DNA from: Leptospiraceae bacterium
GTDB lineage: Bacteria; Spirochaetota; Leptospiria; Leptospirales; Leptospiraceae
Length of the DNA: 64,000 nt
NCBI GenBank assembly: GCA_015075105.1
Contig: JABTUZ010000002.1
Location: forward strand, 848,313-912,312
Direction: 5' to 3'
The notes under the pieces: model-generated
What the model was told of the DNA's origin: nothing
Database searches by the model: none
Seen by the model: the letters and a program-made list of their open reading frames with translations, nothing else
Made by a program: the position numbers and the translations under genes
In this document: piece by piece, positions 1,822 through 60,345 of the stretch
How positions within the stretch are numbered: the stretch's first letter is position 1
Layout: every line of letters begins with the position of its first letter

Positions 1822-2408
1822 ATTACACGCTTTATGATAATAGAAGGTTTTTTATGCAAAAATGTGGGAACTCCACTTCGGAGGACTGATGCTTGAAGTC
1901 TGAGGTCGGAAATTGTGGAAGTAGAATCTTTGCATATAGGTTTATCTTTTAGGATGAGGTTTTGAGCTTTAGTAGAGTTTTTGAAATTTCGCTTTTAGTG
2001 CAGATTTTACACTTTTCGTGTGAAAATGTGGGATCTCCACTCTTTTTAGTAAAGTGCATGTTTTATACTAATTGTTCACCTTTTAAGCAAAAATGTGGGA
2101 TCTCCAATTCGGAGGACTGATGACGGAGGTCTGAGGTTGGAAATAGTGGAGGTAGAATCTTTGCAAATAGGTGTATCTTATAGGATGAGGTTTTGAGCCG
2201 AGTAGAGTTTTGAAATTTTGCGCTTAGTGCATAAGACAAAAACTGCGAAAAAAAAATCCACTTTTTGGGGATTAAAAAGATTACATATTTAATAGATTTG
2301 AGACTTTTCTCAAAAACTAAAAAAATTTTCGAAAATTGCAAAAATTTTATTTCTATCGTGATATTTTTCCATTATAAAGAAGAGCAGAAAATTTTATTTA
2401 AGAAATTT
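1822..2408 (+). repeat. Palindrome-rich leader of DUF1564-type element, copy 1
   Basis: Non-coding repeat with three copies of the near-palindrome TGTGGGA(A/T)CTCCA(C/A) at 1863-1876, 2027-2040 and 2094-2107. The first and third each start a unit A of about 160 nt (GGAGGACTGATG..., TAGGATGAGGTTTTGAGC), and the second starts a shorter unit B. Units A and B recur at 21099-21400 and 44480-44740. The right end has AAAAATTTTATTTCTATCGTGATATT, here described in two parts (AAAAATTTTATT then TCTATCGTGATATT), which precedes all four DUF1564-type genes or remnants. The left end, ATTACACGCTTTAT at 1822, recurs at about 59634. No protein-coding potential is seen. Confidence 0.8.
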
Positions 2409-2874
2409 ATGAACCCACAAAAATTTATCAGAAACCCAATCGAGCTTGCTTGTTCCATAAAATATATGGACGAGTTCAATAGAAGAACGACAGGTTTATC
2501 AATGAGGAAATACCTAAACGTATTGTTGAACAGATACAGAAATGTGATTCTTTGGGGACTTTGAGAAAAATGATCCTGAGAAAACGCGTATCAAGAAGTC
2601 GGCAAAATTTGCAGAAAAGAATTTCGAATAATAAAATAACGAGGACCATTGACAAATGGATTCTAGAGATTGGCTCATCAACAATGAAGACCGCACTTAT
2701 TTTGTTGGTGCTTGACCTTGACGAATGGGATAATTCGAAAAGATTCTTCTGAGAATGGAGTTCCATGTTGAAACCACGATTATGCTCAATTTACCAAATG
2801 GAAAAACGACCCGCTACAATAGGCTAAAACGACACAAACCAGACGAAAAAGAAGAAAAAGCCCGAAATCGATAA
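2409..2874 (+). pseudogene. DUF1564-type gene remnant, copy 1 (frameshifted)
   Basis: The ATG at 2409 opens a frame matching the intact paralogue at 21541 (MNPQKF..., YMDEFNRRT, LLNRYRNVILW). It hits TGA at 2562-2564 because one T is missing from the GGACTTTTGA run. The homology then continues in another frame (TMKTALILLVLDLDEWD against RTALFTLLLLLDIAGWD in the intact copy). It shifts again before a C-terminal piece (GKTTRYNRLKRHK) that ends at TAA 2872-2874. At least two frameshifts are needed to join these pieces, so the gene is broken. No RBS as strong as that of the intact copy is seen. Confidence 0.8.
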
Positions 2875-2940
2875 AAAATAAAATATTTCGTTAAGTTTTT
2901 AAATATTCTTAAAAACAATCATATTAAATTGTTATAAATT

Positions 2941-21076: not shown

Positions 21077-21098
21077 TAATGAGTCTCAAATTCCTTAT

Positions 21099-21540
21099 TC
21101 AAGCAAAAATGTGGGAACTCCACTTCGAAAGACTGATGCTTGCAGTCTGAGGTCGGAAATGGGGGAGGTAGAATCTTTGCAAATATGTGTATCTTTTAGG
21201 ATGAGGTTTTGAGCCTTAGTAGAGTTTTTGAAATTTCGCGTTTAGTGCAGATTCAGCAGTTTTCGTGCAAAAATGTGGGAACTCCATCTTTTTTGAGGAA
21301 TTGCACATTTAGTACGGGTTCAGCACTTTTCGTGCAAAAATGTGGGAACTCCACCTTTTTCGAGGAATTTCACATTTAGTACGGGTTCAGAACTTTTTCT
21401 GTAAAAGCTAAAAAATTTTTTCTAAAATTACAAAAATTTTATTTCTATCGTGATATTATTTTACCTTATATCAAGAGGCAGGAGATAGTGGCTGGGGATC
21501 AGGGATAGAGGAAAGAAAAATTTTATATTAGGAGAATACT
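21099..21540 (+). repeat. Palindrome-rich leader of DUF1564-type element, copy 2
   Basis: Contains three copies of the near-palindrome TGTGGGAACTCCA(C/T) at 21110-21123, 21274-21287 and 21341-21354. One unit A (21106-21265) and two unit B segments share TTCGTGCAAAAATGTGGGA and a trailing CACATTTAGTACGGGTTCAG. The last 180 nt (21361-21540) differ from 44699-44878 at only one base (G at 21407). This block includes an AT-rich segment, AAAAATTTTATTTCTATCG, and a purine-rich stretch before the RBS TTAGGAGAATACT. Confidence 0.85.
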
Positions 21541-22005
21541 ATGAACCCGGAAAAATTTGAGCGGACACAATCGAGTTTACTCATTCCAGAAAAATTTATG
21601 GATGAGTTTAACGCGAGGACTGAAACTATTTCGAGAGAAGATTACTTGCATGATTTGCTGGAGAGGTATCGCAATGTGTTACTTTGGAGGACTTTTGAAA
21701 AGTTGGATTGTGTTAAGACGGTGTATCAGGAAGAAGGGCAAAACTTGCAGAAGAAGAATTTTCGTCCAGAGAACGCAGATTGGATTGAGCTAGGTGAGTT
21801 TGCTCAATGGCTCGGTATTTCAAGAACGGCTCTTTTTACTCTTCTTTTGCTGCTTGACATTGCCGGATGGGACATAATTGTCCCTGCCAAGTTCTATGAC
21901 TTTGGAGTTCCACCCAAGGTCAGTTCTATTGCGGTAGGAGTTTACCTCTCCAAGAGAAAAACTATACGATACAATAGGCTAATACGACATAAGATGCGAA
22001 AATAA
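21541..22005 (+). CDS. DUF1564-type protein, putative RHH DNA-binding protein (intact copy)
   Basis: A 154-residue protein and the only unbroken copy of four in the window. Residues about 10-44 (SSLLIPEKFMDEF, then TISREDYLHDLLERY) follow a strand-helix-helix pattern like CopG/Arc ribbon-helix-helix repressors. Residues about 82-110 (LGEFAQWLGISRTALFTLLL) could be a second helix-turn-helix. The C-terminus is basic (KRKTIRYNRLIRHKMRK). It resembles the Leptospira paralogue family DUF1564 (PF07600), recalled, not searched. The RBS AGGAGA is 6 nt before the ATG. The palindromes in its own leader suggest autoregulation, which is inferred. There is no toxin-like partner gene next to it. Confidence 0.8.
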   Translation: MNPEKFERTQSSLLIPEKFMDEFNARTETISREDYLHDLLERYRNVLLWRTFEKLDCVKTVYQEEGQNLQKKNFRPENADWIELGEFAQWLGISRTALFTLLLLLDIAGWDIIVPAKFYDFGVPPKVSSIAVGVYLSKRKTIRYNRLIRHKMRK

Positions 22006-22075
22006 AAGAAAAGCAAAACTAAAAAAACTACAATATCAACAAAAATACAAACAAGTTATGCCCGGATAGAATTCT

Positions 22076-44479: not shown

Positions 44480-44878
44480 TTGGTGGGACTCCAATTGGGA
44501 GGACTTAGGGTTGAATTAGGTTAAGTTGGGATTTTTTTTAATTAGATTTTATTTTTTGATAGTTTTTAAAATTTTACATTGAATACAGATTTTGCACTTT
44601 TCGTGCTAAAATGTGGGATCTCCACTCTTTTCTGTAAAGTGCATGTTTTATACCAATTGTTCACCTTTCACGCAAAAATGTGGGAACTCCATCTTTTTCG
44701 AGGAATTTCACATTTAGTACGGGTTCAGAACTTTTTCTGTAAAAACTAAAAAATTTTTTCTAAAATTACAAAAATTTTATTTCTATCGTGATATTATTTT
44801 ACCTTATATCAAGAGGCAGGAGATAGTGGCTGGGGATCAGGGATAGAGGAAAGAAAAATTTTATATTAGGAGAATACT
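44480..44878 (+). repeat. Palindrome-rich leader of DUF1564-type element, copy 3
   Basis: A degraded unit A (GTGGGACTCCAATTGGGAGGA at 44483 onward) is followed by unit B segments with near-palindromes TGTGGGATCTCCAC at 44612-44625 and TGTGGGAACTCCAT at 44679-44692. The part 44596-44690 matches copy 1 (2011-2105), while 44699-44878 matches copy 2 (21361-21540) with a single base difference. The leader is therefore a mosaic of two subtypes. No coding potential seen. Confidence 0.85.
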
Positions 44879-45363
44879 ATGAACCCGAAAAAATTTTGAT
44901 GGAATTATAATCGAGTTTACTCATTCCAGAAAAATTTATGGATGAGTTTTACGCGCAAGAAATATGAAACTATTTTGAGAGAAGATTACTTGTTATGATT
45001 TGCTGGAGAGGTATCGCAATGTGTTACTTTGGAGGACTTTTGAAAAGTTGGATTGTGTTAAGACGGTGTATCAGGAAGAAGGGCAAACTTGCAGAAGAAG
45101 AATTTCGTCCAGAGAACGCAGATTGATTGAGCTGTGTGGAGTTTGCTCAATGGTTACTCAGGTATTTCAAGAACGGCTCTTTTTACTCTTCTTTTGTTAA
45201 AACATTGCCGGATGGGACATAATCATCATTCCTGCCAAGTTCTATGATGATTGGAGTTCCACCAAAGTCATACAGTTCGATTGCAGTAGGAGCCTATCTC
45301 TCAAAGAGAAAAACTATCCGCTACAATAGGCTGATACGACATAAGATGTGTCGAAAAGGCTAA
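44879..45363 (+). pseudogene. DUF1564-type gene remnant, copy 3 (many small indels)
   Basis: Begins with the same ATGAACCCG and RBS as the intact gene at 21541. It then has a stop within six codons and many 1-4 nt insertions and deletions relative to it, so homology hops between frames (LLERYRNVLLWRTFEKLD survives from about 45000 in one frame). The C-terminus is recognisable (KTIRYNRLIRHKM) and ends at TAA 45361-45363. Length is about 485 nt against 465 in the intact copy. Clearly broken. Confidence 0.85.
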
Positions 45364-45420
45364 AAAAGAGCAAAGAAATAGAAGAGCAACGAGGAACAAA
45401 CAAAGACCACCAAGGGAGTA

Positions 45421-57439: not shown

Positions 57440-57626
57440 AATGGCGATTTTAGTTAAATTTTTGCATTGTAAGATTTGAAGATTGATTTTTTGAAGAGCA
57501 CCATTTATGACGCTACTGCAAAAACCCCTTCCAGGGCTTTTTACAACGCTAGAAAATGGCACTTTTATTGGCTTATTGAACAATTCTTTTTCAAAAAACG
57601 ACTTTTTGCAGGTACGCCATTTATAA
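57440..57626 (+). repeat. Two tandem units with AAATGGC...CCATTTAT ends upstream of hisB
   Basis: Unit 1 runs from AAATGGCGATTTTA at 57440 to ACCATTTATGACGCTACT around 57517. Unit 2 runs from AAAATGGCACTTTTATT at 57553 to CGCCATTTATAAAAGCTACT at 57634. Each unit starts with AAATGGC and ends with its inverse, so each can fold into a long hairpin, and the two units are direct repeats of about 114 nt period. A 39-codon ORF (ATG 57507, MTLLQKPLPGLFTTL...) overlaps them and is probably fortuitous. The rest of 57260-57643 is AT-rich with nothing else seen. Confidence 0.5.
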
Positions 57627-57670
57627 AAGCTACTCGATGATATATGATAAAAATTGTGGATAACAGGGAA

Positions 57671-59632: not shown

Positions 59633-59887
59633 TATTACACGCTTTATACTAATATAGGACTTTTTACGCTAATGCAAGTGGTACTAACTCCACTTTTTGA
59701 GGATTTCAAAATTAAATTTAATATCAGCCAATTTGGACTTTTCTGTGAAAAAAAAAATTTTTCTAAATCATAAAAATTTTATTTCTATAGTTAACGATAT
59801 TACGGGCTATTCTTATATCAAGCAGGCAAGAAATAGAATTTTAAGAAACTGTATATGAGATCAAAAAAAGGTATTATTAGGAGAATA
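59633..59887 (+). repeat. Leader of DUF1564-type element, copy 4 (degenerate)
   Basis: Starts with ATTACACGCTTTATACTAATA, matching the left end of copy 1 at 1822. It has one decayed palindrome (GTGGTACTAACTCCAC at 59678-59693) in place of two or three, then the shared AAAAATTTTATTTCTAT block and a purine-rich stretch ending in TTAGGAGAATAATA. This is the shortest and most diverged leader of the four. Confidence 0.75.
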
Positions 59888-60345
59888 ATATAACCCGGAA
59901 AATTTGACAAACTAATCAAGTTTATATTCCAGAAAAATTCATGGAATGAGTTTAATTATAGGACAAAAAGGTTTCGAGAGAATATTACATGTCATCGTAT
60001 TGTAGAGATTTCTAATGTTTTGCTGTGGAAATCTTTAGATTTTATCCTGAACAACTTGTGAAACACTTGTTACCCAAGAAGAAGGGCAGAAGGCTATAAG
60101 AAGTCAAATTCGCCCTGAGAATAATAATTGATTGAATTGGGAGAATTTGATCAATTTAAAGTATTTCAAGAACCCTTTTTATTCTTTTGTTGCTTGACAT
60201 TGCAAAATGGGACATAATCATTTTGCCAAGTTAGGATAACACTTTGGAGTTTCACCAAGGTCAGTGTTATTGCATTTAGGAGTTTACCTCTCCAGAATAT
60301 GGAACTATACGATAAATATCAACTAATTGCAAGAAATAGCCGTAA
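59888..60345 (+). pseudogene. DUF1564-type gene remnant, copy 4 (start lost)
   Basis: The expected ATGAACCCGG reads ATAACCCGG, so the start codon is gone although the RBS AGGAGA remains. The body aligns by eye with the intact gene (CCAGAAAAATTCATGGAATGAG, here in pieces; CTTGACATTGC; GGAGTTTACCTCTCCAG) but carries numerous indels and stops. The end is poorly defined, near 60345. Nothing else is seen up to the gene at 60479. Confidence 0.75.

Follow-up and report, generated by a model that had tools for sequence, protein, structure and literature searches.

The locus examined here raises the question of what kind of genetic entity is represented by a palindrome-bearing leader that recurs at a distance, each time in front of the same solitary gene. 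The window, that is the whole stretch of 64,000 nt that was analysed, had been read from its letters as carrying four copies of such an entity, all pointing the same way and composed of a leader with GTGGGA(A/T)CTCCAC near-palindromes, a fixed AT block and a gene for a 154-residue protein with a CopG/Arc-like fold pattern. Sequence comparison over the 64,000 nt recovers the four copies where this sequence-only reading had placed them, and their gene belongs to the DUF1564 family (PF07600). Their parts are as follows.

1848-2886, plus strand: copy 1 (subfamily II), whose leader has three motifs
about 2409-2858, plus strand: DUF1564 remnant of copy 1, frameshifted
21095-22064, plus strand: copy 2, whole, the only window copy with an open 154-aa frame
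21103-21540, plus strand: leader of copy 2, whose modules begin with the motifs at 21111, 21275 and 21342
21397-21460, plus strand: fixed AT block, common to all four window copies
21541-22005, plus strand: intact DUF1564 gene of copy 2 (subfamily I), 154 aa, PF07600 E 1.5e-18
21903-21914, minus strand: near-copy of the leader motif within the gene, inverted (TGGAGTTCCACC, codons G-V-P-P)
22006-22062, plus strand: A-rich, T-poor tail of copy 2, ending AAACAAGTTATGCC
44480-45374, plus strand: copy 3 (subfamily I), with leader motifs at 44613 and 44680
about 44879-45357, plus strand: gene of copy 3, frameshifted
59633-60345, plus strand: copy 4 (subfamily I), old and decayed, with the AT block kept and the gene disrupted

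Copies 1, 3 and 4 show 84%, 88% and 71% BLASTN identity to copy 2, respectively; the AT block is indeed shared by all of them, and an intact protein is encoded by copy 2 only. The leader motif had been ascribed to every copy, which holds for copies 1-3 but not for copy 4: GTGGGA(A/T)CTCCAC occurs at 8 window sites with at most 2 mismatches (shuffles predict 0.44, and none of them reached 8), and all of these sites lie in one direction inside copies 1-3, whereas copy 4 has no motif within 2 mismatches, just a decayed gtggtactaactccac carrying an insertion. The modules of copy 2 are spaced by 164 and 67 bp and are followed by the conserved AT block and then by a 5' UTR with AGGAG. Each window copy lies by itself in intergenic DNA, and the earlier observation that no transposase, recombinase or toxin gene lies beside them is borne out. 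A distinct dispersed repeat of ~126 bp, with partly complementary ends and about 5 copies in the fetched stretches of the genome, is present at window positions 57503-57628, and half of it (CTTTTTGCAGGTNNGCCATTTATA) adjoins several DUF1564 leaders on their 5' side.

The window protein matches PF07600 with 67.5 bits against a gathering cut-off of 25, and the same profile is matched by all 29 aligned relatives. The literature searched yielded no function for DUF1564, nor any description of a tandem palindrome leader, gene conversion or an intragenic site for it. At its N-terminus the protein shows a ribbon-helix-helix-like (RHH-like) pattern, and a second block is also conserved. Here SSLLIPEKFMDEF...SREDYLHDLLERY is reminiscent of the strand-helix-helix arrangement of RHH proteins such as CopG and Arc; differences from RHH regulators and antitoxins are the second conserved domain and the lack of a toxin partner. 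The best RHH profile matches are sub-threshold (CopG_antitoxin, E 0.057; Arc-like repressor, E 0.18), the hhalign comparison of DUF1564 with CopG is not significant (P 0.05), and a single-sequence AlphaFold model (pLDDT 42) is too poor for a fold search. On its residue pattern, the CopG/Arc-like fold proposed for this protein is plausible.

Mapping of the copies across the full genome, which the sequence-only reading had suggested, places the window in a much larger context. A census by DNA, HMM and motif searches, together with about 0.6 Mb of fetched stretches, revealed 61 DUF1564 copies or remnants in this genome (G000; 3.42 Mb, 4 contigs), 25 of subfamily I and 36 of subfamily II; the HMM search returned 49 loci, and 33 of the 61 copies were clearly intact in the selection analysis. 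The four copies are thus a sampling by the window. The motif occurs genome-wide at 208 sites with at most 1 mismatch (2 for the reversed control), 199 of them covered by the fetched stretches, and splits into 108 forward and 100 reverse sites; as both strands are equally used, the shared direction of the copies is true of the window and reflects chance sampling. Leader motifs lie upstream of 48 of the 61 copies, invariably in the orientation of the gene. The leader itself is a string of 67-bp and 147-168-bp modules of varying number and order, each starting with TGTGGGA(A/T)CTCCA, with a conserved box (CTTTTCGTGCAAAAATGTGGGAACTCCA) spanning the module junction; the last motif is separated from the ATG by about 165-210 bp that hold the AT block and the ribosome-binding site. 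DUF1564 is a high-copy dispersed family, most of whose copies in the G000 lineage have a tandem-duplicated, Leptospiraceae-type palindrome leader, and the notion of a dispersed family joining such a leader to a solitary gene is supported. Rfam gave chance-level matches only, and a terminator-like call on the motif hairpin was set aside, its stem being too short to rely on.

The leader also occurs by itself. Thirty-five motif clusters are chained to no gene, and about 20 are credible gene-less arrays once isolated degenerate motifs within ORFs, a 21-bp tandem in coding sequence and clusters adjoining a gene missed by chaining are set aside. With respect to neighbouring genes these solo arrays show no orientation bias, and this randomness speaks against a wide regulon. 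One of them, L082 (C2:204598-205057), ends in an inverted motif (AGTGGGATCTCCA...TGGAGTTCCCACT) and is the only copy with inverted termini. Another palindrome, TTTTGCACACTGTGTGCAAAATT, adjoins two solo arrays and one full element, near C2:355231, C2:996183 and C1:1824158 (L085, L097 and L070).

The boundaries of the elements bring up the possibility of mobility. Many copies have the motif as their exact start, the sequence preceding it being unique, and the first 20 nt after the DUF1564 stop are rich in A and poor in T (0.60 and 0.11, versus 0.35 and 0.37 after other genes). A GGCGAAGCTATRCC-like motif, of which the AAACAAGTTATGCC closing copy 2 is a degenerate relative, ends this tail at +42-45 in several subfamily I copies and lies at +58-60 in most of 12 genes examined from the genomes G004 and G006. 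The elements might hence be non-autonomous and MITE- or REP-like, bounded by the motif at the 5' end and by the A-rich tail with GGCGAAGCTATRCC at the 3' end, and moved in trans by a transposase located elsewhere, with DUF1564 as a passenger or repressor. The exact 5' starts, the placement of the 3' motif at a fixed distance past the stop in two lineages, the dispersed, intergenic situation of the copies and the UniProt name 'mobile element protein' for a PF07600 protein (PMC12457778) are all consistent with this; nevertheless, we regard it as possible but doubtful. The terminal inverted repeats of MITEs and insertion sequences are absent from the full elements and are seen in a single gene-less array (C2:204598-205044), and no convincing interrupted gene or paralogous empty site was found in G000. 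The REP-like character that had been suggested extends to the many dispersed short palindromes with an associated, probably DNA-binding protein; it does not extend to the strict RAYT sense, in which a Y1 (HUH) transposase is either encoded or flanked by the palindromes. DUF1564 has no match to Y1_Tnp, and the only good Y1 transposase of G000, its RAYT, sits between a different palindrome (CCTCCAGCTAAAGCTGGAGG), unrelated to the leader motif. This separate REP/RAYT system is located at L104:5568-6005 (C2:1282567-1283004, minus strand), with CCTCCAGCTAAAGCTGGAGGGAATTCATGGAGGG on both sides of the transposase gene. Trans-mobilisation by the resident RAYT was rejected because the palindromes differ, and this system serves as an internal negative. 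The elements do not evidently encode the machinery that copies them.

The relationships among the copies further weaken the case for recent movement. Intact copies are under strong purifying selection, with dN/dS of 0.087 and 0.088 in the two subfamilies at a mean dS of 0.64 and 0.33. At the same time, PHI-type tests within each subfamily give p=0.001, site incompatibility rises from 0.33-0.42 at distances up to 10 bp to 0.75-0.79 at 121-240 bp, and pairwise distances are uncorrelated both between the 5' and 3' halves of the gene and between leader and gene. Dispersed copies thus bear the signature of pervasive recombination with one another, so that their similarity is a product of ectopic gene conversion and does not by itself imply that they transposed recently.

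Phyletically, DUF1564 was detected in 6 of 8 genomes of the same family, with 12-49 copies each, in 2 of the 22 genomes from the order's other family, at a stricter threshold, and in none of 14 control genomes; among the genomes examined it is restricted to Leptospirales. G000 alone is rich in the exact core TGTGGGAACTC (95 versus 0), which is almost absent from the relatives, where the inspected palindrome matches fall in ordinary ORFs; the apparent enrichment of TGTRGGAACTCCYACA in the relatives at up to 2 mismatches was likewise treated as a codon artefact, almost all inspected matches lying in ordinary ORFs. As the relatives have the gene without the leader, the gene disperses without it, and the leader is a lineage feature. 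Leader and gene accordingly separate in related genera, the outcome that the sequence-only reading had named as refuting a unit, and with the gene-less arrays of G000 this does not support the two as indivisible. In a plasmid and phage search, the window protein had no match, the protein of a relative matched only L. interrogans chromosome II records, and the L. interrogans protein additionally matched one L. borgpetersenii record; two exact motif matches in viral contigs, both in unrelated phage genes, were discarded. MAG_43 was considered as a second strain and rejected: one contig (L031, JABWBZ010000060.1) is 99.97% identical to G000 and probably misbinned, the rest of the MAG being unmatched.

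The leader repeat has a counterpart in Leptospira proper, being of the same kind as the repeats used for VNTR typing of L. interrogans (TTGTGGGAACTC...). Four of the six loci of a published MLVA scheme (V27, V29, V36 and V50) are tandem motif-bearing arrays (PMC1185519 Table 3), whose units carry TGTGGGAACTC or TGTAGGAACT in variable copy number (PMC1185519), and dispersed non-coding satellites have been reported in the same species (PMC6749651). Both organisms have dispersed intergenic tandem units carrying TGT[A/G]GGAACTC, as seen in the 67-bp arrays of G000; they differ in unit length (38-47 or 138 bp in L. interrogans versus 67 and 147-168 bp in G000), and the L. interrogans repeats have not been reported as tied to a gene. 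No paper linking VNTRs or satellites to DUF1564 was found in the literature searched. On L. interrogans chromosome II the motif is present at 5-8 per 50 kb, against 0.2 expected, and the sampled sites are mostly away from DUF1564. Such a distribution, the VNTR state of the repeat in that species (PMC1185519), the relatives' genes without it, the gene-less arrays and the uncorrelated leader and gene distances would all suit an ancient paralogue family with an unrelated selfish VNTR satellite carried along upstream in gene duplication. We hold this to be unlikely, given that the leader accompanies 48 of 61 copies in one orientation and that the inverted motif inside the gene, with its conservation at the nucleotide level, ties motif and gene to each other.

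That intragenic site is an inverted near-copy of the motif in the 3' part of 31 of the 33 intact G000 genes, in which GTT is invariant (33/33) and preceded by GGA in all but one (32/33). The hexamer AGTTCC, the palindrome core in inverted form, recurs at the same place in 48 of 52 genes of three related genomes. In these 52 genes the residue preceding Val varies among A, I, G, S, L and V, and yet the third base of its codon is A in 52/52; the next codon ends in T in 52/52. Third-base identity averages 0.57 along the gene, and no degenerate column apart from these two at AGTTCC is fully identical at the third base. The two Leptospira genes that were read carry GGAGTTCC at the site, the L. interrogans gene also having degenerate palindromes upstream, while the core is absent from the DUF1564 genes of G005. 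The pattern points to a site at the DNA level, conserved largely independently of the encoded amino acid, and the evidence is strong but not conclusive, because the 52 genes are paralogues sharing ancestry and not 52 independent observations, and because G005 is without the site. Conservation of the palindrome core inside the gene favours a link between protein and palindrome.

The gene-fixed orientation of the motif, its multiplication in the leader and the paired site within the gene are most readily understood as the operators through which a DNA-binding protein would regulate itself. Hence, we posit, with about an even chance of being right, that DUF1564 is a family regulating itself through candidate operators in the leader and inside the gene, homogenised by gene conversion. 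The protein would be an RHH-like DNA-binding regulator recognising a palindrome, centred on GGAACT, that lies both upstream of its own gene and within it, and might thereby control that gene and its paralogues via the operator pair. The tandem leader modules would represent multiplied operators, ectopic gene conversion would maintain the similarity of the copies, and decay would have given rise to the solo arrays and the broken copies. As the relatives keep the intragenic core without palindromic leaders, the pairing of leader and intragenic operators is not universal. A bolder alternative, which strikes us as distinctly improbable, is that DUF1564 constitutes a new class of self-maintaining repeat element: a DNA-binding protein whose recognition site is lodged in its own gene, largely irrespective of the codons, and is multiplied in the leader, and which would drive the copying or gene conversion of that DNA from one dispersed site to another without a transposase. 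On this view the Leptospira VNTR palindromes would be footprints of the same system.

For DUF1564, a multi-copy family of Leptospirales, these results put forward a role that can be tested and a candidate binding site; for the repeats on which VNTR typing of L. interrogans relies, they put forward a candidate protein partner. The family further offers a clear case of concerted evolution, with about 60 bacterial genes at dispersed positions homogenised by ectopic gene conversion, and likewise of a short intragenic DNA site conserved across paralogues whatever amino acid is encoded. At L113 (C1:227796-227871), a 21-bp tandem, TGTTGGAACTCCACCTAAAAC, resembles the motif core. A divergent G000 copy, L102 (C2:1222612-1225068), has an exact TGTAGGAACTCCTACA upstream and another at the intragenic codon site in the ORF; a third exact TGTAGGAACTCCTACA site lies about 1.8 kb further on.
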